Positions 1,236 through 64,000 of a stretch of 64,000 bases of DNA are shown here, piece after piece. The position numbers were made by a program, and so were the translations under genes. Source of the stretch: Voacanga thouarsii (taxonomy: Eukaryota > Streptophyta > Magnoliopsida > Gentianales > Apocynaceae). The stretch is from contig JANUWF010001213.1 of NCBI GenBank assembly GCA_026120185.1, positions 496,001 to 560,000 on the forward strand, given 5' to 3'. Under the pieces are notes generated by a model. It saw nothing but the letters and a program-made list of their open reading frames with translations, was not told where the DNA came from and made no database searches. Each line of letters opens with the position of its first letter. The first letter of the stretch is position 1.

Positions 1236-1559
1236 AGGTCATTGTTTAGATCTGTGATATTCAGTTCCTCAAACCACAAATAGTCCTTAAATTTCCTAGA
1301 AACATCACAAGTAATCATAGTATTATAATCTTTGAACCTTTCTAATAAATCTCTGAATTACATATAATACATTATCAAGTATATGTAATATATGTATATT
1401 ACTTACTGAAAATATAATTCAACCTCTTCGCAGTTGCATAATATATAATTTGTAATTGCAATCACCTATTCATCCTTCGAATATCGCTTTTTTGCTCCAC
1501 CTATTTTCCGCCCCACTAACTTGCATATTGAAAGAATATCTTTAGTTGAATTAGGAGCA

Positions 1560-2063
1560 CATTCTTCATTGTGAGATGATATTCTATTGTTTGTTTCCAC
1601 GTGAAGTTCGAAGTAGTAGGAGAAGAATGTTGATGCCTCCTCAACAAGGTAAGTATTACAGATTAACCCTTCTACCCTTACCTTGGTTTTTTATCTTTTT
1701 CTTGAGATGATGCAAGAACCTACCATAACCATAGTATTAAAACATTTTGATGTTATAAAATAAATATTTAAGCAAAACTAACCAATCACATTTGTGAGTG
1801 ATTAAGACAAACCGTTTAAATAGATACATCCACCTATATTGCACAGGCCTACCAACCCTTGCCTCGAAAGGCAAATGAAGTAGAAGATGTTCCATTACAT
1901 CCAAAAAAACCCAGTGGGAAGATTCTCTCTAGCTTGCAAATCAGAGGAGCAACATCTTCCTCTAGTTTGTACATGTGTGACTCGGACAACTCTGTTAAAA
2001 TCGTCCATATTTTCTAGGGAAGTAGTTCCCGTAAGGCAATTGGAAATAATCTCTCCATGAACA
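1560..2063 (-). pseudogene. TNP2-like transposase, DUF4218 region
   Basis: Minus-strand fragments match the DUF4218 region that follows the TNP2 core in CACTA transposases. A KLERIFPLGFF-like piece lies near 1940-1900, a PVQYRWMYLFKR-like piece near 1850-1810, and YLVEEASTFFSYYFE near 1650-1600. The pieces lie in order but in different frames, separated by stops and AT-rich insertions. The segment continues the same decayed gene as the neighbouring entries. The function of the domain is unknown. Confidence 0.72.
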
Positions 2064-3180
2064 CATGTCAATCATGGCTCTTCATGCCAGACATTTTAAA
2101 ATCTTTATAATCAACGCACCTCTCTTATTTTGATGCATACCCATCAGGAAGCCTAAAATCCTTAACCCAATCTAGTACAAGTTTCCTTTGTTCTTTTGTT
2201 AATGAGTAGCAAGCATAAGGTTTGGTACCTTTCTTCTGATCTACTAGACAAATTTCTAATTCTGGCCTATTACAGAACATGGCCAAATCATGTCTAGCCT
2301 TGACCATGTCCTTGGTCTTACCATTCATATCCATCACTATATAGAATACATTAATAAACACATTTTTTTTGCTGTGCATTGCATCAATATTGTGGTAGAG
2401 AAGACTATCTTGCCAATAGGGTAAACCCATAATATGCACCATTTTGCCTCATTGTGGTAATCAACCCAGCCATCGTGTTTCCCAAGTTTAGTTGCAGTTT
2501 CAGTTATCTTTGGAAATAGTTTAACTCTATTCCAAAATTGGTCACTAGTAAGATGAGGTGGTGGTGGACTTAGATCCATCCATTTGTCTATTCTGAAGGA
2601 TTTTTTGTCTCTTCGAAACGGGTGGTGAATATGTAAAAATTAACGATAGCAATCAAACCACGATTGCTTTCCTCCAGAAGGCAATTGAAATGCTTTTGTT
2701 TACTCCATGCAATACAGACAAGCTAACCTCCCTGATGTACTCCACCAACTCAACATTCCATAAGCAAGGAAGTCATTAATTATCCACTGAAGGGCAGCCC
2801 GCATTTGAAAATTTTGCCTCTTTCAAATATCATATGTTACGACATTGGATGCCCATAAGTGATTGAGTTCATCCAGTAATGACTGCATATATACATCTAC
2901 CTTATGTTTTAGGGTTTTTGGTCCTGGTATAATGATAGTTAGGAACATAACGGAATTTTTCATGTACATCCGAGGTGGTAGATTATAAGGCGTCACAATG
3001 ACAGGCCAACAAGTGTACTATTTTCCTAAAATTCCAAATGGTGAGAATCCATTTGTACACAAGCCTAGTCTAACATTTCTAAGCTCTAAGGCAAAATCAA
3101 GAGAGCATGCAACAAAGTGCTTCCAGGCTCCTCCATCTCGTGGATAATTTAAAATACCATCCTCACTTACACTCTTCGCA
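2064..3180 (-). pseudogene. TNP2-like transposase core (catalytic Asp replaced)
   Basis: The core of the CACTA transposase is readable in pieces on the minus strand. LRNVRLGLCTNGFSPFG lies near 3090-3035, a DVYMQS-like stretch near 2900, and LLYHNIDAMHSKKNVF near 2400-2350. A block ending LVLDWVKDFRLPDGYASK lies near 2180-2125, and GMKSHD followed by HVFMERLFPIALREL near 2095-2025. In the family the motif is LCTDGFSPFG, whose Asp is thought to be catalytic. Here the codon reads Asn. Together with several stops and two frameshifts this makes the copy inactive. The domain normally cuts at the CACTA termini. Confidence 0.8.
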
Positions 3181-3182
3181 TG

Positions 3183-3639
3183 CTACCTCATATGCTCTAC
3201 AGTAGTGTTAGATGGATACAATCTCTCTAGCCTTGGAGTGATTGGAAAATAATATATTTTTCTTAAAAGTAACCTCTTTCCGCAATTTATTCTTTCCAAC
3301 CTTCTTCTTATGCGCATAGCATTCATGGCCACAGAATTTACACACTCTACTATTACTTCCATCTTTCCAATAGAGCATACAACCATTAACACAAAAAATG
3401 ATTTTCTGCACTGGTAATGCAAGTCTAGTAACCAACTTCTTTCTTTGATAGAAGTCTTCTACCATCCCGTTACTGGGTGGCATAACTTCTTTCATAAGCT
3501 GGGCAATCTGATTGAAATAATTTTCAGACATATTATTTTTAGACTTAATATATAGCAAATGAAAAATAACAGATAACTGTGAGTGAGTAGCACATCCATT
3601 CCATATTGGTGTATCAACAGCTCTTAACAAGTCATACAA
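3183..3639 (-). pseudogene. TNP2-like transposase, N-terminal region
   Basis: The 143-residue minus-strand frame at 3208-3639 is the segment before the catalytic core of TNP2 proteins. It reads YDLLRAVDTPIWNGC, then LLYIKSKNNMSENYFNQIAQ, LMKEVMPPSN, DFYQRKKLV, CVNGCMLYWKD and a cysteine-rich CKFCGHECY. An overlapping frame (3183-3422) carries the continuation, ending ITPRLERLYPSN, so there is a frameshift near 3350-3240. The order agrees with the domains on either side. Confidence in the identity is high, but the gene is broken. Confidence 0.82.
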
Positions 3640-3851
3640 TTTCTATGCCTCTGGATTAGGGGATTCGACGGCACGCGATTGAGGATCCGAGTCAAAGCTT
3701 GGTCCTGTAATATTAATTATCATCTAATGGTATGGGTTTTCAGATGCTAATTCTACGAAGGTTGCAAATTGGTCAATCCTGTGAGTTGTTCGTACCAATG
3801 CTTCTCCATGACAATTCGGTTTGTATAATTAGATACAAGACCTTTCCGATA

Positions 3852-4052
3852 CTAATGGGAAATGATTACTTCTTTAGAATAAAACTTTTCATTCTTACAA
3901 GCTGAACAAAAACATCTAATTCGACCCCTGTCTGCTGGAAGAGCATTTAATGATGCAAAATCATTGAATTTAAATACTCCCTTAATAAAGTCTAGATTAA
4001 GCCCCTGTTCCTGAGAGTTATGATGTTTATACATCCAACTACGATTTTTCAT
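3852..4052 (-). pseudogene. transposase-associated domain at the TNP2 N-terminus
   Basis: The frame opens MKNRSWMYKHH, continues with a GLNLDFIKGV-type segment, and reaches RGRIRCFCSACKN, a cysteine pair pattern (CxCxxC). This is the transposase-associated domain that starts plant CACTA transposases, where the start MDRSWMY is nearly invariant. The ATG at 4052 is the natural start codon of the gene. Downstream continuity to the next segment (3639) is lost through stops. Upstream lies the microhomology site at about 4095-4105 that is also the junction of the tandem duplication described elsewhere. Confidence 0.78.
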
Positions 4053-14526: not shown

Positions 14527-15525
14527 ATGGTGGGAGGTTCTTTTAGTCCTTTGGCCGTTATTCTCTGAGAGAATAAGCTAACGAGATCAAACTATGTAGA
14601 CTGGAAGAGGAACTTGGACATAATTCTCATAACGGAAGAGTATAAGTATATCCTTTACGAAACTTGCCCTGTTATCGGGGAAGGTTCCATCGCCGAAGAG
14701 CATGAGGCTAAGAAGGCATGGAAGAAGGCCGACGAGATGGCTCAATGTTACATGTTGGCCTCCATGTCTAATGTGCTCCAGTGAAAACACGAGCACATGG
14801 CTTCTGCGTACGACATAAGTCAATCATTAGCTATGATGTTTGCAGATAAGAACCGGCTCGCAAGGCAGGAGGTTCTTTGAACTATCGTTAACTCTAAGAT
14901 GGCTGAGGGAGTATCAGTCAGAGAGTATATGCTCAAGATGATTGCTGTTTTTGAGGAGGCAGAAATCTTAGGGGCTGTCATTGACCCCGAGAGCTAAGTG
15001 GACATGGTTCTCGAATCTCTACTGGGTTCTTTTACTCAGTTCAAGTTGAATTACAACATGAACAGGTTAAACATGAGTTTAACTAAGTTGATGAAAGAAT
15101 TCCATATGGTGGAGAAGGACATGAAGCCATAATCAAATGCTATGATTGCTAAGGCTTCTTCCTCTAGAACTGGGCCCAAGCGTAAAATGTTCAAGAAGAA
15201 GAAGGGCAACGCAGCGGCCCAGCCTAAGACCCAGCACAAAGACAAACCCAAGGGTAAGTGCTTCAAATGTGGACTGAAGGGACACTGGAAAAATGAGTGT
15301 CCAGATCTTCAAACCAAGAAAAACCCCATAAGTAATGTTTTCTATCTACAGTCTATATCAATAGTTGGATCAACTTCCACTTGGATTGTTGATTTAGGAA
15401 CCACTGATCACATCTATAACTCCTTGCAGGGGTTTAGAAAGATTAGAAGACTCCAGAAGGGCGAACATGGACTACGTGTGGGAAATAGAGCACAAGTTTG
15501 GGCCTTTGCAGTGGGATAGCAGGAT
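14527..15525 (+). pseudogene. copia copy 2: gag with zinc knuckle, start of protease
   Basis: From the ATG at 14527 the translation follows plant copia gag: MVGGSFSPLAVIL, RSNYVDWKRNLDIILITEE, SVREYMLKMIAVFEEAEILG, NMNRLNMSLTKLMKEFHMVE. The zinc knuckle CFKCGLKGHWKNEC is near 15265-15305 and the protease region reads STWIVDLGTTDHIYN. The family has DSGA at the protease site. Here it is DLGT, so Ser and Ala are changed. Stops interrupt gag near 14566, 14783, 14878, 14996 and 15130. The 5' LTR and leader precede it correctly, so this is the 5' half of the original element. Confidence 0.87.
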
Positions 15526-16593
15526 CTTGTTTTTTTTATTGTAATAGTATAGTAGTTTTGAAAGATATTTTATATGTACTTGGATTTAGGGAACATGGAC
15601 TATTTTATAGTAAGCCCTTCCAGTGTCTTTTTAGGGATATGCCCTGGAAATAACGACATACATTCTGAATTTGGCGCTTTCGAAGTCAGTACCTAGGACT
15701 CCCTATGAGATGTAGACTGGGTGTAGGCCAAGTCTAAATCATCTCAGGATATGGGGTTGTCCAGCTTATGTACTAGTCAAGGAAGACAAGTTGGAACCAA
15801 GATCAGGATTATGCTATTTTGTTGGGTATCCAAAAGGGACAAAGGGTGATTACTTTTATCATCCTAAAGAGTAGAAAGTACTGGTTTATACCAATGCTAG
15901 ATTCTTAGAGGATGATCAGAGTACTTCCACGAATGGTTCAACTAGGTTGGAACTTGAGAAAAAGTTATCTTCAGAATCATCTTCTTTTGACCAGATTATG
16001 GAACAAGAAGAGGCATAGCCTCAAGAGCCAGTACAATTGGAGCCTCGTCATAGTGGGAGAGTGTTTAGGGTTCTGGAGAGATGGACTGGAGAAGCTTTCG
16101 AGCTTGTCTCCGACCATCAGAAACAAGACCCCACTAGATACGAGGAGACTATTGATGATGCTGATGCAAATCTATGGCATGAATCAATGAAAGCCGAGAT
16201 TGAGTCTATGTACCTCAATTGGGTTTAGGATCTTGTAGCTTCACTTGAAATGATAAAACCCATTGGGTGTAAGTAGGTATATAAGAGAAAGAGAGGAATG
16301 CATGGGAAGGTGGAAACCTTTAAAGCTAGGCTTGTGGCGAAAGAAAATACACAGAAAGAAGAAATCGATTATGAGGAAATCTTTTCTCCAGTAGCCATGC
16401 TTAAGTCCATCTGTATCCTCCTTGCCATCGCATGTCATTATGGCTACGAGATATGGCAAATAGATGTCAAGATGACAATTTTAAATTGCCATCTTAGTGA
16501 AGACATCTATATGTCCCAACCGAAAGGCTTTATTGCTAAAGGCCAAGAACATATGGTTTGCAAGCTTAAGAAGTTCATTTATGGACTTAAGCA
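15526..16593 (+). pseudogene. copia copy 2: integrase end and reverse transcriptase, first part
   Basis: Near 15590-15612 a deletion joins the start of the GAG-pre-integrase region to the end of integrase ([16 protein letters not shown]). About 750 bp present in copy 1 (6665-7420) are missing. Downstream the order is GCPAYVLVKEDKLEPRSG, the linker with WHESMKAEIESMYLNWV, then KVETFKARLVAKENTQK, FSPVAMLKSI, YEIWQIDVKMTILNCHLSED and KFIYGLK. LTR-B2 interrupts at 16594. Stops at about 15713, 15873, 16017 and 16226 break it. Confidence 0.85.
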
Positions 16594-18205
16594 TGTTGGG
16601 AAATATGCCCTCTTAGACTTGGTTTCAGATGTAAAATTCGAATAATTTAATAAAAGAATTTATTTTCAGAAAACGTTTGTGAATTTACTTTTTTATTTGT
16701 GCATAATTTCATTTGGAAAAGACCCATTGTATTTAAAAAAGTGATCTATGTGAATGGTGGTCTTTCACAGTAACGTATGGATCATGGGTTTTTTAACACA
16801 TAAAACATTTGTTCTTAACCAATTGATGAGAATGGGAATCTCATCATGTTTAGGTTATTATGTTACGAATTCCAAAGTGGGAAAGGCTTTAGCCAGTGAG
16901 TAATCCACTCACTTCATGACATAAGCGTATTTCGAATACGTAGAACATGACCTGTAGTAGTGGTTTCTTAAAGTACTATTTGGTAGAAACCTAGACTACT
17001 TCTGCTACATCGTAGACTAATGCTCTACGACTTGAGTATAAGTTGGTGGTCTAACAAAGCTGGAAGCATGTACTTTGATATGCTTTAGTTGAGGTCTATC
17101 GTAAAACCAATAGACTTATATATTGGGTATATGTAATTAGTTAGTTAAGACAAACTTGTACAAAATAATTCTGCACAATAATGCCTCTTGTGGTTGCCTG
17201 GATGATCTAAAATGTCCAGGGCCCTGAGAAACATGACTTGGATGTTTGCTTTAGGGTAGCTCCCTTAGAAACCGAAAACACTCCAGGAAGTCGTGGACCA
17301 TTGGACTAGAAGTCTAAGGATGGTAGATGTTATTTAGAGAGGTGTTAGTACACTTTTTCCTCTCTAAATGTACGGCGATGTGTAGAGGGGTATTTTAGTC
17401 ATTTCACCTGTGGGTCGGAGACTTTACTAACGCAGCATTGTCGTTGGGGTCAATATTTTCTTATGGTGATATTTGAAAATATTTAAAATGCAAAATATAG
17501 CTATTAATATAGTATGGGTATTTTGGTCATTTTAGTAGCCAAGCCAATGTATCTTTTTGGTCCTTGGAATAGCCCGTAAGTCCTAATTAATATTGGGATG
17601 AGGAATTGGTCTCAGTTAAAGAGGATATTAGTTTATTTAGGAAGTTTAATTTATTATTAGACTAGAATATAAATAAATAAAAATGAGTTGAGAGAAATTA
17701 ATTATCTGGTTTAATTAATTAATTAATTATTCAGGGCCAAGTTCCAGTTTGAATAATTAGAAAATTAACCTGGGCTTAAACTAGAGGGGAATAAGCTTGT
17801 TTAATTATTTATTGGGTTATTTATATAAGCCCAAGAAATAAATATTTAATGTTTAATTATTTTGGTTCATTTGGGCTCATTAATTATTTATTGGGTTATT
17901 TCTGCAAGTCCAAAAAGTAAATAATTAATGTTTATTATTTTAGGCTTTTTGGGTCCAAGAAAAATAATAAATATTATTTTGGCCCAATAGCCTGGACCAT
18001 AGGGTTTTTTCCAGATACGGTTCAGAAGAGTTTAGCGTTAAGTCAAACTTACTCTGTTGATAACATCTGGGTGCTTGAAATATCATATCCCAGGGGATAT
18101 TGTTATTAGATATCAGATACCTTGTTTTGGCTAGTGAGACGCACGCCTCTTGTGAAAAAGAAAAAAACCCTATTTTCCTCGTAAACACACACACACACAC
18201 ACACA

Positions 18206-27954: not shown

Positions 27955-28690
27955 CACAACAGGAAAAATCGCCATTTGCGACGGCCAAAAACCGTCGCAA
28001 AACCGTCGCTGACCGTTTTTGCGACGGTTTTGCGACGGTTTTAGCCGTCGCAAAAACGACGTCGCAATTTGCGACGGCCATAGAAACCGTCGCAAATTGC
28101 GACGGTTTTGCGAGGGCAAAAAATTCGTTGCTATTTACGACGGTTTTGCGAGGATTTTGCGACGAATATTTTTTGGTCAAACTTCACCAGAGGAACAATT
28201 TTTGCGACGATTTTGCGACGAAAAAAAGTGACCCTCGCAAAACCGTCGCAAATTTGCGAGGGTTTTGCGAGGGCTACGGTTTGGACCCTCGCAAAACCGT
28301 CGCAAATCGCAAAATCGTCGCAAATTTGCGAGGGTTTTGCGAGGGCTACGGTTTGGACCCTCGCAAAACCGTCGCAATTTGCGAGGGTTTTGCGAGGGCC
28401 AACCTTGTGCCCTCGCAAAACCCTCGCAAATTGGGACGGTTTTGCGAGGGGACAATTAACCCCAAGTCGTGACCCTCGCAAAACCCTCGCAAATTGCGAC
28501 GGTTTTGCGAGGGGACAATTAACCCCAAGTTGTGACCCTCGCAAAACCCTCGCAAATTGCGACGGTTTTGCGAGGGGAGAATTAACCCCAAGTCGTGACC
28601 CTCGCAAAATCGTCGCAATACCCTCGCAATTTGCGAGGGTTTTGCGAGGGCCACGACTTCAGCCCTCGCAAATTGCGAGGGTTTTGCAAT
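27955..28690. repeat. left subterminal repeats of the CACTA element
   Basis: Dense direct and inverted copies of TTTGCGAGGG, CCCTCGCAAAA and TTGCGACGGTTTTGCG, forming many perfect hairpins. Three near-identical units with AATTAACCCCAAGT recur near 28450, 28512 and 28575. Subterminal repeats of this kind bind the accessory transposase protein in En/Spm. Several long open frames across this zone are produced by the repeats. Confidence 0.85.
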
Positions 28691-31439: not shown

Positions 31440-34400
31440 TCGGGCCTATTCACTAGAATCATTCTCCGATCTGAGACTCATCATCATCTACTGAGGTATC
31501 GCTACTCGTTTCCCATTCATCTTCTTCCTCTTCATTTATAGGAGAACTATCCCTTGCTTGTTATAGCCTCATCATGAACATCCAACATTTCACTCATACC
31601 ATTCTCATGCGTCGAGAATACCAAGATCAACAAATAACGATATGCTTGACTTCGTCGGTAGCATCTACTTCTTCTCGATAAGCTCTATCAACCACGGGTG
31701 CATCTATTATATGTCGAGCTTTGGTTTTGCAAGCTGCCAACCAATCGAGATCTTGGCCTCTTACTCCCTGGATATGATGCATAATACACTTGGATAGCTT
31801 GTTGAGCTAGAACAAATGGATCATAGTTAGCATAGCTCCTTTTGTGGTTAATTTCTACAAGATTATACTGCGGATGTACCCTCGTACCACGATTCAATGT
31901 TTGATCAAACCGGTGACATTTAAAAAGAACAATGCTTTCTTTGTGGATTACCAGGAAATTGCACTTCAATAATCTCATTTAACACTCCATAGTAATCGAG
32001 GTCTCGATGCGTCATTTCCAATCCCTTTCACGCAAACACCACTATTAAGCTGTTTTCTTTCCCTCCGCATAATCATGAGTGTGAAATCGGTAACCATTAA
32101 TTATGTACCCACTATATGATTTCACTAGTCTTGACGGACCCCAAGCAAAGTTCCTCAAGCATTCATTTGTAACCATATTTTACGAATCTTGTACCTAAAA
32201 AACATTAGACAAGTTAACCTCGTAATTATGAAAGTTATAGCATTATGAAACTCCATTGAATCCCCAATGGAGTTCCAAATGCAAGTTATTATCTTATGAG
32301 ACTTACATATCCACTAAACCATTACGCAAATTCAAGGTGATACTTCTATTGATTTCTATCTACGATATAGTCGGAGCAGGACTTACGTAAGTGTGCAGTG
32401 AATGCCCTGTAATGCATTAGAATTAGATGGAATGAGTCAAAATCATTATGAGGTATCGTTTATCGTATAAAATGTATGAAGTAGTAGCTCGTACTCAATG
32501 TATGGCTGCACTTCACCACAATTAAGCAACATATAAATTCTTGCTGCAACGAATTCTTCGAAGTAAGGAACCGAGTTCGAATTCGTCCTATCACCCGATC
32601 CTTGAACATTGCGGATTGACGACCCGGGTTCTTGCACCCTCTCTAATCGTTCTCCTTCTTCATTACGCGCTGGAATTGTACGTTTTGTTTGTACATGTGG
32701 CTCAAAATAATAAGAGAAGAAAGTGGATGCTTCCTCAACTAGATAAGCATTGCGAGATTGACCCTTCAACTCTAGCCTTATTTTTCACCTTGATTTTCAA
32801 TTGATGCAAATACATGTCATTTAAAAAAAAATACGACTTCGAGTCACACACACTTATATCGAACCTGCTATGAAAAGAATTAGATTGAATGATTCGATTA
32901 CCGTTCAAACGGGTACATCCACCTATATTGAACGGGGCCACAAACTCTTGCTTCGTAAGGCAAATGAATTAATAGGTGTTCCATTACATCAAAGAATGCG
33001 AGGTGGAAATATCTTCTCCAACTTACATAACAATAAAGGAATGTCGGACTCCAATTTGGCCATATGAGCTACATTCAACTTAGGAGAGCATAGATCACGA
33101 TAAAAAAGACTCAACTCCAGTCAAAACACCCCATACATTAGAAGGAAGAAATTCCTTCAATGCAATTGGAAGTAGTCTCTCCATGAATACGTGACGATCA
33201 TGTGATTTCATACCGGATAACTTCAACTCATTCAAATCGGCACATCTTCCAATGTTTGAAGCGTATCCATGCGGGAGTTGCAATCCCCTCAACCATTCTA
33301 GCAAAAGTTTCTTTTGTTCGATGTCAACGAGTAAACATGACTTTAGGTATAGCCACTTTTCCTCCTCCCACATTCAAGGCATGTAGCTCGGGCCTATGGC
33401 AATAAATTTCTAAGTCACGTCTAGCCTTTAAATTGTCTTTTGATTTACCCTTTACCTCAAGAAGCTGTATTCATGACATTGTCAAATACATTCTTCTCAT
33501 TGTGCATTACATCAATATTATGTCGGACCAAATTAGTACGCCAATACGGCAAATCCCAAAAAATACTCCTTTTTGCCCAATTATGAGATATTCCCCTGCC
33601 ATTACTCCTTCCAATTTCTTTGCATGTTTCTGTAATTTTTTCATAATTAGACAAACTATCCCAGATTTCTTCACCGGTAGGGTATTGCACGAGTTGTGAT
33701 GTCTCGAGAACCTCTATCATTCCTAAAAGATCTCGTATCCCTCCTGTAAGGATGATCCGATGGTAAGCACGACGGTGACGAGTCAAACCATGATTGTTTC
33801 CCACCATTTTGTAGATGAAAAGACTTTGTATTGCCCATACAATATGGACAAGCCGATCTCCAGCGAGTGCTCCGGCCACTCAACATACCATATGCGGGAA
33901 AATCATTAATAGTCCACAAAAGTGCCGCCAGTAGTTGGAAGTTTTGTTTCTTCGATATGTCATAAGTGGTGACACCTTCAAACCACAATTTGGTTAATTC
34001 GTCTATCAAGGGTTGTAAATAAACATCCACCTGGTGCTTTGGATTCTTGGGGCCCGGGATAATGATTGTTAAAAACATGATTGGATCCTTCATACACATC
34101 CACGGGGGAGATTATACGGTGTGAGAATGACCAGGCCGGGATGAATATTGCTTACCAGACATCCCAAATGGTGAGAATCCATACGTACATAAACCAAGTT
34201 TGACATTCCGTACTTCTTTTGCAAACTCGGGATATATTCGATCAAAGTGTTGCCATGCTTCGAGTATCACGAGGTGACTCATTGTGCCTTTCTCCGATCT
34301 GCTCTCTCCATGCCATCTCATGTGTTCGAGTTGTTGTTTTGGAAGTGTACAATCTTTGTAGCCTCGGTGTTATCGGGAAGTAATACATCTTCTTGAATGA

Positions 34401-37930: not shown

Positions 37931-39460
37931 ACCCTATTTTGTTGTAAAACCCTCGCAAATTCGTCGCAATTAGTGACGTATTAGCGGCAATTTGCGACGA
38001 ATTGGGGCTTTGAGATTTTCTATACATTTTGTCATTTATTTATTTTTTAATTAAAAATATTGACCGTCGCAAAACCCTCGCAAATTGCGAGAGCCGAAAA
38101 TTCGTCTCAAAACCCTCGCAAATTGCGAGAACTTTGCGACGGATGTTCAAAAATTTTTAAAATATTTTTTTAAAAAATAATCGATCGTCGCAAAGCCCTC
38201 GCAAATTGCGAGGGTTATTGCCGTCGCAAAATCCTCGCAATTTGCGAGGGTTTGCGATGGACGTTCAATTTTTTTTAAAAATAAATTACCGTCGCAAAAC
38301 CCTCGCAAATTGCGAGGGCTAACTACCGTCACAAAACCCTCGCAAATTGCGAGGACTTTGCGATGGACGTTCAAAAATTTTAAAAATATTTTTTTAAAAA
38401 ATAATTTGTCGTCGCAAACCCATCGCAAATTGCGAGGGTTATTTACCGTCGCAAAACCCTCGCAATTTGCGAGGGTTTTGCGATGGAAGTTCAAAAAAAA
38501 TTTTAAAAATATTTTTTTAAAAAATAAATTGCACGTCGCAAAACCCTCGCAAATTGAGAAGGTTTATTGGCCGTCGCAAATTGCGAGGGTTTTGCGATGG
38601 ACGTTCAAATTTTTTTAAAAAATATTTTTTAAAATTAAATATCCGTCGCAAAACCCTCGCAAATTGCGAGGATTATTTGCCGTCACAAAACCCTCGCAAA
38701 TTGCGAGGGTTTTGCGATGGACGTTCAATTTTTTTTAAAAAAAAATATTTTTAAAAAAATAAATTACCGTTGCAAAACCCTCGCAAATTGCGAGGACTTT
38801 GCGATGGACGTTCAAAAATTTTAAAAATATTTTTTTAAAAAATAATTTATCGTCGTAAAACCCTCGCAAATTGCGAGTGTTATTTGCCGTCGCAAAACCC
38901 TCGCAATTTGCGAGGGTTTTGCGATGGTCGTTCAAAAAAATTTTTAAAAAATATTATTTTAAAAAATAACTTGCCGTCGCAAAACCCTCGCAATTTGCGA
39001 GGGTTTATTAGCCGTCGCAAAATCCTCGCAAATTGCGAGGGTTTTGCGACGGACGATCTGAAAATTTATTTAAAAATATTTTTTTTAAAATAACTCGCCG
39101 TCGCAAAACCCTCGCAATTTGCGAGGGTTTATTAGCCGTCGCAAAATCCTCGCAAATTGCGAGGGTTTTGCGACGGACGTATCTGAAAATTTATTTAAAA
39201 ATATTTTTTTAAAATAACTCGCCGTCGCAAAACCCTCGCAATTTGCGAGGGCATAAATACCGTCGCAAATAGCGATGATTTTGCTACGAATTGCGACGGG
39301 TATTTTGGCCGTCGCAAAACCGTCGCAAATTGCGACGGTTTTGCGACGGTTTTGGTCAACTCGCTACTTGTTTGAAAATCGTCGCAAATTGGTCACTATT
39401 AGCGACGGTATTGAAGCCGTCGCAAAAAATTCGTCGCAAATCGCGATTTTTCCTGTAGTG
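37930..39460. repeat. right subterminal repeats of the CACTA element
   Basis: About ten tandem units of 105-125 bp. Each has CCGTCGCAAAACCCTCGCAA, an inverted partner TTGCGAGGGTTTTGCGA, a GGACGTTC word and an AT-rich AAAAATATTTTTTTAAAA spacer. The zone is twice as long as its left counterpart, and the left lacks the AT spacers. Every unit can fold into a hairpin. Open frames here (for example 38310-38618) arise from the repeats. Confidence 0.87.
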
Positions 39461-48619: not shown

Positions 48620-49050
48620 ACTACAAGAAAATTGTTAATCTGCCACGGACATTTGTTACGAAAAAAATTCCGTGGCAATTTGCCATAGATTTGCCAAGAA
48701 AAAAGATAAGACATAGCAAATTTCCATGGCAATGTAATTGTAGCCAATCCGTAGCTATTTGTCACGGACTTGCAATGGATATTGTAGCAACTAGCAATGC
48801 AAAGATGTTTCCCTCACAATTCCGTAGCAAAAAAAAAAAAAAAAAAAAAAAAAAGACAGGGGAAAAATTAGCCACCAATTTGCATTGGAAAATAATATTG
48901 ATATAAACCTCCGTAGCAAATCTGTGGCAATTTGCCACGGAATAAAGTACTTTCAAATTAATTAGATTGCGACAGAATTAAGTATTTCCTAACTAGTTTC
49001 GTGGCAAATCCATGGCAATCTATTAGAGATTTGCCACAGATTTATTTTTT
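48620..49050. mobile_element. CACTA-like terminus with CCGTGGCAA subterminal repeats
   Basis: CACTACAAGAAAATTG at 48620 is a canonical plant CACTA end. Direct and inverted copies of CCGTGGCAATTTGCCA-type words follow (near 48645-48700, 48900-48940 and 49000-49040), the subterminal arrangement of these elements. The same words recur at 54830-54890, 55258-55300 and 55650-55730 beyond the copia insertion. No matching right end was found in the window. Confidence 0.65.
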
Positions 49051-49303
49051 TCTTTTTTATTCTATTTTTTATTCTATTAATTTGTATGAATATTTGTTCC
49101 ATACCTTAAAATTCCTGATCTTATCTTTAGTTGATTTTAAAAAAAAAATTCTTTCTTATTTGTAGTTAAAAATTTTCATTTCTTTCTATCTTTCTATTTA
49201 TAATTTGACAACAAAAGTCATTGGGAATATCAGTGCAATTAACTATATTACCATTTAGAATATTCAAAAAATATTTTAGTTAAAGTAGGGATAAAAAGAC
49301 TAA
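49051..49303. repeat. ~0.4 kb tandem array, left part
   Basis: Contains the unit words GACAACAAAAGTCATTGGGA and AACTATATTACCATTTAGAA that recur beyond the copia element (54723 onward). The copia element split the array, leaving ACTAA on both sides. Confidence 0.7.
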
Positions 49304-49654
49304 TGTTATAAAATTTGGATAGTGTTAGAATAAAATCTACACACTACACACTAATAAAACTCTGACTATTCTTTGTACAAGAATTTCTCTCTTTCTTTTC
49401 TCTCACAATTTTCTCTAATCTTTCTTTTACAAAATAATGGTGTATTACAAGCTTAGAGAATAGCTCTATTTATAGAGCTCTAATTAGTGGAATACATCAT
49501 GGCATACATCATCTTCCACTAATCTTAATTAGTGGTGTCTCCATTAAATGATGGACATCCATAAAAATCTTCTCTAATAATTCACATAAATCCATAATTA
49601 GTGGAGCCTCCACTAATTAATGGAACTTCCAATAATTTTAAGATATTCATAACA
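49304..49654 (-). repeat. copia 3' LTR, 351 bp
   Basis: TG..CA-bounded LTR. On the minus strand it follows a polypurine tract. Its counterpart is at 54144-54494. Confidence 0.9.
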
Positions 49655-49665
49655 CTCCCCCTTGG
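49655..49665 (-). other. copia polypurine tract
   Basis: On the minus strand AAGGGGGAG directly abuts the LTR, the expected plus-strand priming site. Confidence 0.82.
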
Positions 49666-49789
49666 ATGTCCATCCATTACATAAAGAATATGTCTCGTTA
49701 AAACCTTACTAGATAAAAACCCAGTGGAAAAAATATCTAGTGAAGGAAAAAGAGTACACTATTCTATATGTCTGTTTATTACTCCCCCT

Positions 49790-51690
49790 GATGAGCTAAG
49801 TCCTTTAAATCTTTAAATCGACGCATATCAATTATATATCTCAACTTCTCAAATGTTGTAGTCGATAAAATCTTCGTGAAAATATCTGTGAGGTTATCAC
49901 ATGACCAAATTTGTAGCACATCAATTTCACCTTTCTTCTGGAGTTTGGTGGCCTATGTTGTGTTCGATCTCCTTTAATATATCCTCCTCGTAATTGCACT
50001 ATGCAAGCTGCATTCTCTTCATAAAGAGGAGTTGGAATATTTCTGATATATAATAATCCACAACTTTCTTGGATATAATGAATCATTCTCTACTTGCTTC
50101 ATGAATAGCTGTAATTTCAACATAATTTGAAGAAGTAGCTGCTTGGAGATATCGGAGGACTTGTTTAATTCCATTCTAATGTCGTCGTGTTGGTGAAGAA
50201 CTAAATCTTACTAATAAATTGACAGCAAAAGCAATATCAGGTCGTGTATTATTAGCAAGATAATCAATGCACCAATTGCACTGAGATATGATACTTCAGG
50301 ACCAAGAAGTTCTTCATCCTCTTCTTGGGGTTGGAAAAGATCTTTATTCACATCTAATGACCGGACGATCATTGAATACTCAATGGATATGCTTTGTCCA
50401 TGCTAAATCTTTTTAGAACTTTTGTTGTATATGTTGAATAAATGTTCTACTTGCCAAATGTTCAATTTATAAACCAAGGCAAAGTGTAATTTTACGACCA
50501 TCCTTGATGTCGAATAATCAATTGTTTCTTGGAACTCTTCAGGAGTTCCAATAAGATTAATATCATCAATATATATAACTAATATCACAAATTTAGAATC
50601 AAATTTCTTAATAAAAACACATGGACATACCTGGTCATTTTTAAATCTCGCTTTCAATCACTATTCACTAAGATGAATGAACCACATGCGCCCAGATTGC
50701 TTCAGGCCATATAATGATTTCTGCAACTTGATGGAGTAATTTTCACGAGGATAATGTTTATATGCTTCAGGCATATGAAATCCTTCAGGGATTTTCATGT
50801 AAATATCATTTTCTAAATTTCCATACAAGTAAGCAGTGATAACATCTAATAGGCGCATATCTATCTTTTCATGTACTGCTAAACTGATAAGATATCGGAG
50901 TATAATAGCATCAACAATAGGAGAATAAGTTTTATCATAATCAATACCTGGTCATTGTGAAAAACCTTGGGCTACTAACCGTGCTTTATATCGTACGATT
51001 TCATTATTTTCATTGCGTTTTCGCACAAATATCCATTAGTAGCCATTAGGTTTTACACCTTTTGGTGTTCGGACTGCAGGTCTGAAGACTTCACGTTTTG
51101 TCAATGTATTTAACTTCGATTGAATCGCATCTTTCCATTGCAGCCAATCTTTTCTATACCAACATTCATTAACTGATATTGGTTTAGGATCATCATTATC
51201 CTGTGTAACATCAAAAGATATATTGGATACAAATATATTATCAATAACAGTTTCTATCCGATTCCAACTTCTACCGGAAGTGGTATAATGGATAGAAATT
51301 TCAATATTACTTTCATCAACTTCTGGTTCTTTGTCATCAATATGAATATCTGGAACATTTAATCCTCTTTCCTTTCGAGGATTTTTATCTTTAGAACCAA
51401 GAGTTCGGTCACGCTTCTGGCATGTTTTTGGCTCAACAGCTATAGGTATAATCTTTTGTTCTGCTGGAACTTCAAGTTGAATAGGAGCATCTATAGCTGG
51501 AATATGCAATTTTGTTACTCTTCTGGAGTCAACAAAAGCATCTGGAATTTGATTTGCAATGCTTTACAAATGCATTACACTGTTGAACTTCAAGTTCACA
51601 CATGCTTGTATGCGGATCAAGATAATTTATAATGTTGTCCAATCAAGATCTTTCTTATACTATTTCTGTTCTCCCCATAATTTAGGGAAT
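49790..51690 (-). pseudogene. copia pol remnant: integrase end, reverse transcriptase, RNase H
   Basis: On the minus strand, from about 51690, the frame pieces are the integrase-to-RT linker (IANQIPDAFVDS, HIPAIDAPIQLEVP), then WKDAIQSKLNTLTKREVF (about 51120). RT follows with LLDVITAYLYGNLENDIYMK, IPEGFHMPEA and LQKSLYGLKQSGRMW (50858-50690), and VIYIDDINLIGTPEEF (near 50560). RNase H has NIPTPLYEENAACI and RGGYIKGDRTQH (50086-49940), where the family's DN is EN. Frameshifts and stops occur near 51030, 50660 and 50100. The upstream integrase core and protease are absent. Confidence 0.84.
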
Positions 51691-51886
51691 AATGATTTCA
51701 TAAGAGAATAATGAAAAAGAAAAGGAAATGTAAGAACATGATGACAAGTAGGAAATGCCAAGACATTTATTATAAAAATCTCCTTTTTTTTTTTCTTTTC
51801 CCGGTACCGACTTTTCCTCTTCCTCTCTTGTCTTTTCTTCTCTTCCGACCCTCTACCTACTATCTACCTCTTCTCCTTCCACATAC

Positions 51887-51926
<40 letters not shown>

Positions 51927-52009
51927 CGATATATATCTCAATCATCAGTCATTAGTAAACATCAAAAACAAAAGCCATAAAGCAGATATAGAGACTCGTA
52001 ATTCATTTG
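51691..52009 (+). other. upstream sequence of the captured RKD gene (inferred)
   Basis: Pyrimidine-rich DNA (CCTCTTCCTCTCTTGTC near 51828) followed by a TATATA run (51890-51920). It is not copia-like. It may be the promoter and 5' leader of the RKD gene, acquired together with it. The junction to copia pol is somewhere near 51690. Confidence 0.4.
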
Positions 52010-53329
52010 AGACATGGTCAAATTTTGACTTAGTTTCTGCAGCAGATTTTGATGTATTTTGCTTTCCAAGCCAACCGCTTTTTCCTAATTCTAAGGCAGA
52101 AGATTTTAATATGTTATCCTTTCCAAGCCAACCGCTTCCTCCTAATTTCAGGTGAGATACCTTTAAGGGCTTCCTTTTTTTTTTTTTTTTTTAGTGTGCT
52201 TGATAATGAAATTAAACTATCTTTTGGTTTGTTTTGATGTAAATCAGTGAACATACTGCTTGGGACCAATTTGATCTGCCCATGTAAGAGACTGCTTTTG
52301 ATGTTGTTCCTCTTGATGCTATTCCTCTGAATGAGGATATGCTTGTGCATGATCCTTTCTACTCTCTATTAGATTTTGAACAAAGCCAGAATATGATTCC
52401 AGGTTATCATATATTCAAACACAGGTTTTGAATGGTATTATCTTTACTGATATTATTTTCTTTTTCTAGGAGAAATAATGAGTGGTATTGGTAATGAAGT
52501 CGGAGTGAGGACCCATGACATGCATAATATCGAAGTTCAAGATATTATTTCAGACGAAATTCCTATAGAGAATAAAAGGATTAAGAGGCAGAGAGAGAAG
52601 AAAGGCAATAACTCCCAGACACTATCAAGAGAAACCATTTCGCAGTACTTTTACCTGCCAATCAAGAGCGCGGCCAAAGAACTGAATATTGGCATAACCC
52701 AGTCTCAAGAAAAGATGTAGGGAGTTAGAAATTCGTCGATGGCCTCACAGGAAGTTGATGAGCTTGGAGACCCTAATCCAGAATGTTCAAGTTCTCTCTC
52801 ACACACACTTATAATTTGCAAGTATGAAACTATGAAAGATTTATAAGTAAATAACCGATGATATCACTTCGATTTACAGGAGATGCAAAATAAAGAAGAA
52901 GGAGGACATATGGCTGAGAAGAAGTTGAAAGAAGCCATTAAGATACTGGAATATGAAAAGCAGTTAGTGGAAGAAAGTCCTGATATGTAGTTGGAGGACC
53001 AAACACAAAAATGGAGACAAGCATGCTTCAAGGCCAAATATAATGAGAAACTTAAGTATAATAAACTTAAGGGGATCATAAAATCCCAAGACTCATTTCA
53101 CAGTAACTTCACGGCTAATTCTGCTGCTAGTCTAGATGCTGGCTCAAAAGGGAAGGAAAAGGAGGAGGATGCCGAAGAAGAGGAGCTGAAGTCCATAATT
53201 GCTAATTGTTTGTCTTCCTCTAATGTAAATATTGAAAAAGAACAATTACAAACATTCATCTTAAATTTGTCAGCTCAATTGCAAAAGAGAAACTACAAAC
53301 ATGTATCCTCAAGTTCATGTGAACACTAG
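52010..53329 (+). pseudogene. RKD: RKD-type RWP-RK transcription factor pseudogene inside a copia element
   Basis: Four exon-like blocks with GT..AG introns read as an RKD protein, a plant RWP-RK factor active in egg cells and embryogenesis. They are ~52010-52151 (ends CAG/GTGAGA), 52248-52402, 52470-52789 and 52880-53329. Phases agree across the introns. Exon 2 gives SEHTAWDQFDLPM then a stop, then PLNEDMLVHDPFYSLLD. Exon 3 gives LSRETISQYFYLPIKSAAKE. After a one-base frameshift near 52705 it gives RRWPHRKLMSLETLIQNVQ, the RWP-RK motif. Exon 4 gives an EKKLKEAIKILEYEKQL coiled segment, a TAG at 52988 (family Gln), then LEDQTQKWRQACFKAKY. AATAAA lies ten bases after the end. The first-exon start is unclear. 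The gene is antisense to the retroelement and non-functional. Confidence 0.87.
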
Positions 53330-53399
53330 TGATATGAATAAAAGATGTGATGCTTATTATTAATGGAAATATCCTTTTCCCTTTCTATTTCACTTCAGG

Positions 53400-54088
53400 T
53401 GGCTAGTATTTCTCTGTGATAAGGGAAATATCGAGTGTGTCCATGACCATAACCACAGTCACTGCCACAATTACGACTAGAATGATGGCCTCTGCTAAAG
53501 CCAACAACATTCACTTCTGGGAGTGCTGTTGAGCCAGTTCATTTGGCTTCATGATTGCTCAATAATAACTCATGTTAAATCTGTACACTTTGGATACTCT
53601 ATTTTTCGATATTATTGCTGCAGGACAATATTCGAGGCATGAAAAGTGGAAAATGTCTTCTCCAATATATCTTCATCAATAACTTTTTCTCCGCATATTT
53701 TTAACTGAGATGTAATTTTATACATTACAAAGCTATATTCATTCACGGTTTTAAAATTTTGCAACCTCAGGTGAAACCATTCATACCGTGCAGTGGGTAG
53801 TACGACCATCTTCAGGTGGTCAAATCTTTCTTTTAAATTTACCCACAGGACATATGGATCTTTTTCGATAAGATATTCCATTTTCAAATTTTCATCGAGA
53901 TGACGACGAATAAAAATCAAAACTTTAGCCTTGTGTTGTGTAGATGCACTATTATTTGCTTGAATAGTTTTACTAAGGCCTTCAACATTTAGATACATTT
54001 CTGCATCGAGAAACCATAACATATAATTTTTTCCAGAAATATCAAGGGCTACAAATTCGAGTTTAGCAAGGTTAGCCATAAAGATCAA
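53400..54088 (-). pseudogene. copia gag
   Basis: The 158-residue minus-strand frame at 53612-54088 is a copia gag: LVALDISGKNYMLWFLDAE-like start, IRRHLDENLKMEYLIEKDPY, LWVNLKERFDHLK, WFHLRLQNFKTVNEY and ICGEKVIDEDILEKT. Beyond a frameshift near 53610 the C-terminal tail continues to about 53400 (NHEA.. then TGSTALPEVNVVGFSRG), where RKD-derived sequence begins. The start lies about 55 bases inside the primer site, as usual. Confidence 0.83.
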
Positions 54089-54130
54089 TAAATGCGTACC
54101 TGTCTTCTGGCTTTTGTAACGGTAGAGACT

Positions 54131-54143
54131 CGTGCTGATAACG
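54131..54143 (-). other. copia primer-binding site
   Basis: On the minus strand CGTTATCAGCACG directly adjoins the 5' LTR, the position and form of a copia tRNA primer site. The tRNA species is not assigned. Confidence 0.65.
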
Positions 54144-54494
54144 TGTTATAAAATTTAGGTAGTGTTAGAATAAAATCTACACACTACACACTAATAAAAC
54201 TCTAACTATTCTTTGCACAAGAATTTCTCTCTTTCTTTTCCCTCACAATTTTCACTAATCTTTCTTTCACAAAATAATGGTGTATTACAAGCTTAGAGAA
54301 TAGCTTTATTTATAAAGCTCTAATTAGTGGAATACATCATGGCATACATCATCTTCCACTAATCTTATCTAGTGGTGTCTCCACTAAATGGTGGACATCC
54401 ATAAAAACCTTCTCTAATAATTCACATAAATCCATAATTAGTGGAGCCTCCACTAATTAATGGAGCTTCCAATAATTTTAAGATATTCATAACA
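54144..54494 (-). repeat. copia 5' LTR, 351 bp
   Basis: Same length as 49304-49654 with about 15 differences by eye. ACTAA follows at 54495. Confidence 0.9.
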
Positions 54495-55920
54495 ACTAAG
54501 AATTTTTTTTTCTAATTTTTTATTTTTATTTTTATTCAATCCATTTTGATTAAACTGGTCAAATGTTTTATAAATATTTTTTATCTCTAATTTATTTATT
54601 CTTGAAAAAAGAACTGATACAAATCTAAAATAGAATGTAATATTTTTGTGTGTCGAAATATATGTGTATTAAAATAAAAAATTTTAAAGATATGATATAT
54701 ATATATATATATATTTACAACAAAAGCCATTGATAATTTAGTGCAATTAAATATATCACCATTTAGAATATACAAAAAATATGTTAGGTAAAATAGTGAT
54801 AAAAAGAATAAAAAAATTTTATTATGTGTTCTGTGGCAAATCCGTGGCAATCTGCCACGGACTATGTTAGCCCGTGGCAAATCCCAAGCAAATTGTAAGA
54901 GATTTTCCATAGATTTATTTTTCCTTTTTTATTCTAAATTTTATTATATTTAATTTTTTCCATACTTTTTGATTAAAATGGTCAAATGCTTTATAAACAT
55001 TTTTTTTTATTTCTAACTTATTTATTCTTGAAAAAGACTCGATACGAATTTAAAATAGAATGTACTATTTTTGTGTGTCAAAATATATGTGTGTATTAAA
55101 ATAAAAAATTTTAAATATATGATATAATTTTTTTTTTTTTTTGACAACAAATGCCATTGGAAATATCAATGCAATTAATTATATTACCATTTAGAATATA
55201 AAAAAAATTATGTTAGATAAAATAGTGATAAAAGGAATAAGAAAATTTTATTATTTATTCCGTGGCAAATCCCTAACAAATTGCAAGGGATTTTCCATGG
55301 ATTTTCCCCCCTTTTTTATTCTAATTTTTGCTATATTTATTTTTATTCCATACATTTTGATTAAAATGGTCAAATGTTTTATAAACATTTTGTTTTTTTT
55401 ATCTCTAACTTATTTATTCTTGAAAAAGAATTGATACGAATTTAAAATAGAATGTAATATATGTTTTTGTGTTGAAATATATGTGTGTATGAAATTAAAA
55501 TATTTTAAAGATATGATATAATTTTTTTATTTTAACAACAAAAGCCATTGGAAATATCAGTGCAATTAACTATATTACCATTTAAAATATACAAAAAATA
55601 TGTTAGGTAAAATAGTGATGCAAAGAATAAGAAAAAAATTTTATTATGCGTTCCGTAGCAAATCCGTGGTGGATTGTGTTAGTCCGTGACAAATCCCTAG
55701 CAAATTGCGAGGGATTTGCCACAGATTTATTTTTTTCTTTTTTATTTTTATTTATATTATATTTATTTTTATTCCATAAATTTTGATTAAAATGGTCAAA
55801 TGTTTTATAAATATTTTATTTTTTTATCTCTAACTTATTTATTATTGAAAAAAAATTGATACGAATTTAAAATAGAATGTAATATTTTTGTGTGTTTTAA
55901 AATAAAAAATTTTAAAGATA

Positions 55921-55954
<34 letters not shown>

Positions 55955-56010
55955 ACAACAAAAGCCATTGGAAATATCAGTGCGGTTAACTATATTAAAT
56001 TTATTTATTT
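54495..56010. repeat. ~0.4 kb tandem array with CCGTGGCAAA words, right part
   Basis: About three and a half units of 390-425 bp. AAGCCATTGG recurs near 54723, 55150, 55543 and 55965, and ATTAAAATGGTCAAATG near 54968, 55357 and 55780. Most units contain CCGTGGCAAATCC with GGATTTGCCA-type partners. It continues the array left of the copia element and probably belongs to the CACTA-like element at 48620. Non-coding. Confidence 0.8.
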
Positions 56011-62589: not shown

Positions 62590-64000
62590 ATTTCATCCCG
62601 AAATTCAGGTTTCATACCCTTCGAGTATACCCGGATACTTTCGTCTTAACCATTCCTCCGTTTCCCACGTTGCATCCTGTGCTCCATGATGATCCCAAAG
62701 TATCTTCACCATGGGTATCTGCTTGTTTCAGAGCGTCTTAATACTCCGCTCCAAGATCTTGACGGGTCTCTCCACATAACTCAGATTGGGTTGCAACTCC
62801 AACGGTTCCTCATTGAGTACATGACTCGGATCAGGATTGTACCTTTTCAACTGAGAGACATGGAATACGTCATGCATCCCGATTAGGCCATCAGGTAGAT
62901 CCAATCGGTAGGCAACCAGTCCAATTTTCTCCAATATCGGGAATGGTCCCAAATACCTAGGACTCAACTTCCCTCCCTTCGGATATTTCAGGATTCCTCT
63001 ACTAGGAGTCAACTTCAAGAATGCACGGTCACCTACTTGGAACTCCAATTCCCTCCTCCTAGTGTCTGCATAGCTTTTCTGTCTGCTTTGTGCTGCCCTT
63101 AGCCTTTCCCGAATTAACTTAATCTTGTCGATCATCTCCTGAATGCATACTTCACCAGTCTTTTTAACGTTCCCTTCTTCTGTCCATCCCCAGTATATTA
63201 ATACTTGGCATTTTCGCCCATACAGTGCTTCGTACGGCGCCATTCCGATTGACGCCTGATAGCTGTTGTTATATGCTAACTCCGCATGCGGTAAAGACTC
63301 AATCCACTTGTCTCCAAAGTCCAAGATACATGCTCAGAGCATGTCTTCTAGTATCTGAATGACTCTTTCGGATTGACCGTCTGTTTGCGGATGAGCAGAG
63401 GTGTTGAATTTCAATGTCGTGCCCAAGGACTCCTGGAACTTACCCCAGAACCTTGAAGTGAATCTAGGGTCCCTATCCGACACGATGCTCGACGGTACAC
63501 CATGCAACCTTACAATTCCTCGGGTATATGTCTAAGCCAACTTTTCCATCGAGTCCCTTACGTTTACCAGTATGAAATGCGCTGTCTTGCTCAATCGGTC
63601 CACTAACACCCAGATCGCATCTTTGTGTGACTTGGTCATCGGAAGGCCAGTCACAAATTCCATGGTCACCTCTTCCCATTTCCATTTGGGAATCGGTAAC
63701 GGTTGCAGTAAACCTGCAGACTTCTTATGCTCCATCTTAACCTTCTGGCATGTCAGACAGGTTGACACATGCTGAACTACATCCCTCTTCATTCCAGCCC
63801 ACCAATATTTCCTCTTCAAGTCTTGGTACATCTTTACCTCCCCAGGGTGTATGGTGTATTTGCTCTTGTGCGCTTCATCCAGTATCCTCTTCCTTAAGTC
63901 TTGGATGTTCGGTACACAAATCCGGTCCCGAAAGTACAATACCCCTTCCTCATCGGTTCGGAAATCGCCTCCTCCTCTTGCGATCTCTTTCTCCCTGAAA
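62590..64000 (-). pseudogene. gypsy integrase and chromodomain (partial, broken)
   Basis: From the window edge the minus strand reads the zinc-binding region (HKSKYTIHPGEVKMYQDLKR, then CLTCQKVK, near 63870-63730). The core follows: [45 protein letters not shown] (near 63480) and [13 protein letters not shown] (near 63390). Then come ELAYNNSYQASIGMAPYEAL, FLKLTPSRGILKYP and HDVFHVSQLKRY, and a chromodomain (VERPVKILERSIKTL.. KQIPMVKILWDHH.. TWETEEWLRRKYP) ending near 62600. The first catalytic Asp (MDFV in the family) is Glu here. Stops occur near 63533, 63335 and 62729. The chromodomain places it among plant chromoviruses. Confidence 0.85.

Follow-up and report, generated by a model that had tools for sequence, protein, structure and literature searches.

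The 64,000-nucleotide stretch analyzed here (the window) is plant DNA of 35% G+C from an assembly of Voacanga thouarsii (1.346 Gb in 1,848 contigs), and at 49304-54494 it carries a Ty1/copia retrotransposon within which lies, in reverse orientation, a gene of the RKD (RWP-RK) type. The transcriptional sense of this element is the minus strand, and the order along it is the 5′ long terminal repeat (LTR), gag, the RKD gene on the opposite strand, the integrase end with the reverse transcriptase (RT), and the 3′ LTR. The individual features, with window positions, strand and the basis of each, are as follows:

49299..49303, no strand: left copy of the target-site duplication ACTAA (sequence read)
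49304..49654, minus: 3′ LTR, 351 bp, 336/351 identical to the other LTR
49655..49684, minus: putative polypurine tract region, AAGGGGGAG, adjoining the 3′ LTR (position in the element)
49655..51697, minus: copia integrase end and RT/RNase H side, with stops and frameshifts (RVT_2 match)
51698..53373, plus: captured RKD segment, with approximately 290 bp of upstream sequence, the whole gene and a short 3′ tail (alignment with normal copies)
51988..52151, plus: RKD exon 1, start codon ATA (gene model)
52152..52247, plus: intron 1, GT-AG (gene model)
52248..52402, plus: RKD exon 2, stop at 52285 (gene model)
52403..52469, plus: intron 2, GT-AG (gene model)
52470..52790, plus: RKD exon 3, RWP-RK domain, inserted base at 52701 (PF02042 on both halves)
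52791..52879, plus: intron 3, GT-AG (gene model)
52880..53331, plus: RKD exon 4 and stop codon, premature stop at 52988 (gene model)
53374..54088, minus: copia gag, its tail 16 bases short (Pfam, homologues and sister alignment)
54110..54143, minus: putative primer-binding-site region, adjoining the 5′ LTR (position only)
54144..54494, minus: 5′ LTR (LTR pair alignment)
54495..54499, no strand: right copy of the target-site duplication ACTAA (sequence read)

An earlier reading made from the letters of the window (the sequence-only reading) had described two 351-bp LTRs with ACTAA on both sides, and our alignment confirmed this description, with 13 transitions and 2 transversions separating the two repeats, ends that read TGTTAT...ATAACA, and ACTAA forming a 5-bp target duplication. 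The LTR pair with TG...CA ends, the 5-bp duplication, and the copia-type gag and RT place the element in Ty1/copia. The gag piece at 53612-54088 (minus strand) matches Retrotran_gag_2 with an E of 4e-5 and 23.6 bits, under the curated cut-off of 27, and 371 of 380 candidate homologues have an E of at most 1e-3, the best match being 66% identical. On the other side of the RKD gene, RVT_2 is matched by the piece at 50664-50951 (E 1.6e-20) and by a second RT piece (E 0.026), and the integrase-end piece at 51039-51563 has six homologues. The earlier placement of gag on one side and of integrase end, RT and RNase H on the other is upheld for gag and RT, with no RNase H match among the pieces searched from the RT side of the window element. 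The RT of the window copy contains 6 stops and 3 frameshift-type indels over 416 codons. The window copy also lacks the protease and integrase that an autonomous element would carry, both of which are kept in sister copies elsewhere in the genome, and these sisters have a normal zinc knuckle and protease-integrase sequence at the very place where the window element has RKD. The sisters thereby support the proposal that RKD stands in place of the protease and the integrase core, and extend it, since the zinc knuckle is also gone.

The RKD gene in the window has four exons and three GT-AG introns (96, 67 and 89 bases) and is antisense to the element, and the loss of introns that marks a retroduplicated gene is not seen here, all three introns being kept. 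By comparison with sister copies, the borders of the RKD segment lie at 51697/51698 and at about 53373/53374; an alternative in which copia sequence reaches approximately 51785 was rejected, as the sister copies put the junction at 51697/51698. The window RKD copy is a pseudogene, as demonstrated by its ATA start, the stops at 52285 and 52988, and the inserted base at 52701. Comparison with 11 other aligned copies (loci elsewhere in the genome are labeled L009-L046, the window copy being the one at 49304-54494) showed that the ATA start is common to the window and L014, with ATG in 10 of the other 11, that the exon-2 stop and the inserted base occur in the window only, and that the premature stop at 52988 is common to the window, L022 and L040.

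Several lines of evidence bear out the earlier claim that this plus-strand gene is of the RKD type. The RWP-RK domain, which is split by the frameshift, matches PF02042 in both halves, with E 8.5e-7 (29.2 bits) and E 4.1e-7 (30.2 bits) against a cut-off of 29.3. The protein search returned 216 matches, of which the best 120 all carry RWP-RK, many of them named as RKD or RWP-RK proteins of flowering plants, and the two best show 45% and 46% identity across 86% and 80% of the query. A tree built from the element RKD and the 60 best matches makes it sister to the Catharanthus roseus protein P0010 (97/92), although the bootstrap is not fully settled. The RWP-RK domain, nearest relatives that are RKD proteins, and a conserved C-terminal stretch place the gene in the RKD subfamily, which acts in egg-cell and embryo identity. 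At near-invariant RKD residues, copy L009 differs at 6 of 51 positions. An argument that the RKD gene had decayed before the window insertion, drawn from 50 near-invariant columns of which 7 were changed, where simulation gave a mean of 2.2 (P 0.007), was overtaken by L009, where six of the seven changes also occur, so that these changes are older than the copies. A scan of viral contigs with an exon-4 piece found no relative, and a solved-structure search, Rfam at gathering scores and a tRNA scan gave no match.

The genome contains many further copies. We scored 40 of 3,787 candidates from a search with the LTR, all at least 96% identical, and took 20 loci around these matches; RKD lies between RT and gag in 8 of the 20 (89-93%), all or part of protease-integrase is present in 11, and one (L026) has neither. 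As these loci were chosen for their likeness to the window LTRs, the proportion of RKD-bearing elements among them does not stand for the genome as a whole. Another 17 pieces of 2 kb comprise two with RKD and RT (L037 and L040), nine with protease-integrase, one with gag only, four with none of these, and one (L033) with an RKD paralogue. When extended as L046, L033 showed this paralogue and then, 0.6 kb downstream, a further RKD-bearing element. A second search, with RKD, gave 3,654 candidates, of which 40 were scored (86-100%, most over nearly the whole query); the upstream flanks of 15 of these showed the same copia-RKD junction in 14, the fifteenth piece being too short. RKD is thus inside or directly joined to copia at 26 loci, window included. 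In addition, a 32-base RWP-RK word, searched with up to two mismatches across the 1.35-Gb genome, gave 2,040 matches (1,038 forward and 1,002 reverse), and the reversed control gave 0. These 2,040 are word matches and not complete elements, the flanks having been read at 26 loci, and we infer that most of them lie in such copia elements.

Examination of the junctions demonstrated that the copies go back to one event. The left junction (window 51697/51698) is the same in 9 of 9 RKD copies aligned, and the right junction (53373/53374) is the same within a few bases in 9 of 9. A 16-base deletion in gag is likewise present in all nine RKD-bearing copies aligned, the bases being kept in 6 of 6 normal copies. 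These common junctions and this common deletion argue for one capture followed by amplification. Two copies, L010 and L023, have approximately 100 extra bases at the RKD 3′ end, and all three introns are GT-AG in 6 of 12 copies. An RT tree of 21 rows contains a branch (90/90) that parts 11 normal copies from the 9 RKD copies and L026. At the RKD borders we also considered microhomology, namely an 8-bp word, CTTTTCCC, on both sides, and rejected it, since 236 of 1000 shuffles reach it and the right one is ordinary copia sequence.

The insertions themselves are independent, as 8 of 10 elements have perfect and distinct 5-bp duplications (ACTAA, TATTG, TCAAA, ATATA, CTAAC, AAAAG, TATAT and GTAAG). 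The sequence-only reading had supposed that one element captured a host gene and transposed with it into many copies, and had suggested a search for others with RKD between gag and RT and with differing target duplications; the 26 loci with RKD in the same place and, wherever it was read, at the same junction, the duplications and the 2,040 word matches now provide such copies, and the possibility that no other copy exists is ruled out. The left LTR of L021 (L050) is flanked by TGATAACG, which is normally just inside the other LTR and suggests a tandem or recombined element. At 1.3e-8 per site and year, the rate used in PMC5664825, the LTR divergence (K 0.017-0.044) amounts to 0.67-1.7 million years. 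The RKD segments of 12 copies differ by up to 10.6%, indicating that the RKD lineage predates these insertions. An uninterrupted RKD frame of 362 codons is present in 2 of the 12, L009 and L037, the intron-3 donor being altered in L037, and the other ten have premature stops. ATG is the start codon in 10 of 12. The RT of ten RKD copies contains 3-6 stops and 1-10 frameshift-type indels per 416 codons, and that of nine normal copies 0-6 stops and 0-2 such indels. Two RT stops are shared widely among the RKD copies and occur in none of the 9 normal copies: the one at codon 44 is present in 9 of 10 and the one at codon 357 in 8 of 10, which indicates that RT had been disabled before the bulk of the amplification. 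The RKD lineage thus spread for the most part with a broken RT, presumably with help in trans from sister elements that share its LTRs.

With the structure, the one origin, the independent insertions and the number of RWP-RK word matches established, we consider that the window element belongs to a non-autonomous Ty1/copia family of high copy number, in which a single ancestral swap of the zinc knuckle, protease and integrase core for a whole genomic RKD gene, in reverse, was followed by spread (probability about 0.88). In the ancestor, a complete RKD gene of four exons and three introns, with approximately 290 bp of upstream sequence, would have replaced this block in reverse orientation, and with LTRs and internal ends kept, the element could still have been transcribed and copied, the missing proteins probably being supplied in trans by full-length sisters. 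The element RNA contains the RKD gene in antisense, and the introns would therefore go unrecognized in that RNA and pass unspliced through reverse transcription, so that an intron-bearing gene would be multiplied by an RNA route. Entry of the RKD DNA would have needed an unspliced, antisense or genomic source, since a spliced mRNA is without introns.

Several points weigh against this interpretation. In the RT tree, L026, a deletion derivative without RKD, falls among the RKD copies, which the starred branches do not unite in one clade, and the 90/90 of the normal-copy branch is short of the tool's mark of 95/80. Two of the 10 elements have no perfect duplication (GTGGT/GTGGC at L027 and none at L021). 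The word matches beyond the 26 loci with flanks read are assumed to be alike, and the presence of both haplotypes in the assembly may inflate the count of 2,040. Finally, the parental RKD gene was not found among the 40 scored of the 3,654 candidates, with 14 of the 15 flanks read being copia and one too short, so that the host origin of the captured gene is drawn from the RKD family tree and from the paralogue in L046. This paralogue (L046:3418-4558, C777) has the canonical C-terminal stretch, approximately 70% DNA identity to the element RKD, and premature stops; its nearness to the RKD-bearing copia 0.6 kb away looks unlikely by chance. A 57-bp tandem duplication in RKD exon 1 (52039-52152) is present in the nine element copies compared and single in the paralogue.

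The present state of the RKD gene is probably that of a neutral passenger, whose frame seems kept since the capture is recent relative to the amplification. Premature stops in 10 of 12 copies, and private changes that are rich in replacements, as expected without constraint, favor this account, and in rice, according to PMC3726574, many LTR-captured genes are pseudogenes and 36% are expressed. Against it stand the divergence of the RKD segments, which indicates that the lineage is not very young, and a pattern of changes in which RKD appears constrained while the RT of the same elements does not. The competing account is that RKD is more than cargo, the lineage having been selected to keep a germ-line or embryo transcription factor that aids expression where copies are inherited. 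We find this doubtful, although it has a precedent in the constraint on captured genes in sorghum, which PMC3726574 describes as more often expressed and under purifying selection.

The pattern of changes was obtained by sorting them into shared (at least two copies) and private (one copy), and into replacement (N) and silent (S), leaving out codons with gaps, sites showing more than two bases and mixed-class sites; RT counts cover 416 codons, ending short of the spot where a one-base difference sets the reference L011 apart from all 18 other copies. The comparison of shared with private changes, which is not a formal selection test, gave N:S of 44:37 shared and 96:26 private for RKD in 10 copies (p=0.0003), and of 72:19 and 119:35 for RT in the same copies (p=0.87), with the shared changes of RKD and RT in RKD-bearing copies differing at p=0.0006. 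In nine normal copies, where RT should be needed, the RT counts are 27:17 and 140:32 (p=0.008). For RKD in 12 copies they are 54:38 and 100:32 (p=0.008), with p 0.12-0.89 in the five wrong frames, and another count in nine copies gave p 0.0015, with p 0.044 in the mirror frame. The results in ten and twelve copies, those for RT, and the intact frame in 2 of 12 copies speak for a selected cargo. Speaking against it, stops account for 6 of 98 shared changes, where 3.3% is expected, and so show no depletion, and the shared ratio stands at 0.63 of expectation in the true frame and falls as low as 0.55 in wrong frames. On strict internal branches of nine copies the RKD counts are 20:16 versus 84:27 (p 0.034), but the inner ratio alone is indistinguishable from neutral (p=0.10), and a comparable 22:15 is obtained in the +1 frame. 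The departures of L009 from near-invariant RKD residues also count against selection. Older RKD coding changes thus look constrained and those of RT do not, which is suggestive of selection on the cargo but does not prove it, and we regard selection on the RKD frame as possible, at about one chance in four to three. A bolder version, to which we give slightly less credence than to the selected cargo in general, is that the family gave up protease and integrase in exchange for a reproductive master regulator that selection has kept; RKD protein from the antisense gene would turn on the element or its helpers in the egg cell or embryo, so that the cargo would pay for itself and RT would be left to helpers. 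If the RKD frame was indeed selected, a retrotransposon would here be making use of a reproductive regulator of its host.

That the antisense copies give rise to small RNAs directed at the RKD genes of the host is unlikely, and more so than selection on the cargo. The orientation would yield antisense RKD RNA from the LTR promoter, and the copies are many; however, a close parent gene was not found among the candidates scored, and the only paralogue seen, being approximately 70% identical in DNA, would offer few perfect 21-24-base matches. The weakest alternative, that RKD entered the window copy separately after copia had landed, as a nested DNA transposon or repair filler, could call on a DNA-level gene copy with introns and on an antisense orientation that is unusual for transduced genes (PMC7264820), but is highly improbable and refuted for the window copy by the same junctions in 9 of 9 aligned copies and the same left junction at 14 of 15 further loci, with a border scan for the terminal inverted repeats and duplication of a Pack-MULE finding no convincing pair, and none better than chance. 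The original event could have been of this kind.

Comparison of the RKD family with known captures is based on four sources, one of them, PMC13317346, being a review of plant gene capture that covers Bs1, Rider and template switching. The presence of genes inside LTR elements is in itself commonplace, with 1,398 to 3,898 of them counted in six plant genomes (PMC5664825). Bs1 of maize similarly has host coding sequence in the internal region of an LTR element (PMC13317346), but it carries pieces of three genes and no full-length open reading frame, whereas the RKD element has one whole, intron-bearing, antisense gene and 2,040 word matches. LTR-driven retroduplication, for example of pepper NLR genes, also places host genes in LTR elements, sometimes in number (PMC5664825; PMC3726574); there, however, spliced mRNA is captured and introns are lost, intron loss being the mark of retrogenes (PMC5664825), whereas the RKD gene retains its introns and runs antisense to its element. 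As a rule, transduced genes have the same orientation as gag-pol and are present once or a few times (PMC7264820). In Grande, RIRE2 and Retand, many copies of the family carry a conserved antisense gene (PMC7264820). Their open reading frames lie between pol and the 3′ LTR, and are described there as having no similar genes outside the elements and no known origin. The RKD element, unlike these, has a recognizable RKD gene as the relative of its cargo and has lost protease-integrase. Rider is a copia-type element. At the sun locus of tomato it provides a further case of a retrotransposon with a host gene affecting development, but with one transduced segment that has a fruit-shape effect and no gene-bearing family (PMC13317346). 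The RKD family departs from these captures by orientation, introns, completeness and number together, and our literature search, which covered the titles and openings of abstracts in capped listings, with subscription papers mostly outside it, found no RKD-bearing retrotransposon, which is no proof of absence. The family points to an RNA route for multiplying intron-bearing genes, a multiplication that the usual rule would put down to DNA duplication, and it may be a natural source of antisense RKD RNA, of interest for research into RKD, embryony and apomixis.

On both sides of the window element lies a tandem repeat of approximately 425 bp (48658-49303 and 54500-55997) with cores CCGTGGCAAATCC...GCCACGGA, into which the element is set. 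This repeat is also present beside the L046 paralogue (L046:1-2810). Among the other L009-L046 loci, many of which have little flank, it occurs in L033 alone, and L033 lies within L046. At 28235-28672 and 38267-39284 there are tandem arrays with palindromic cores like CCGTCGCAAAACCCTCGCAAATTGCGAGGGTTTTGCGACGG, in a style akin to the repeat around the element and with open reading frames on both strands. Other transposon remains in the window are found at 33671-34099 (Transposase_21), 15142-16645 (zinc knuckle and RVT_2), 62728-63939 (integrase zinc-binding and Tf2-1-like SH3) and 462-1013 (DUF4216).

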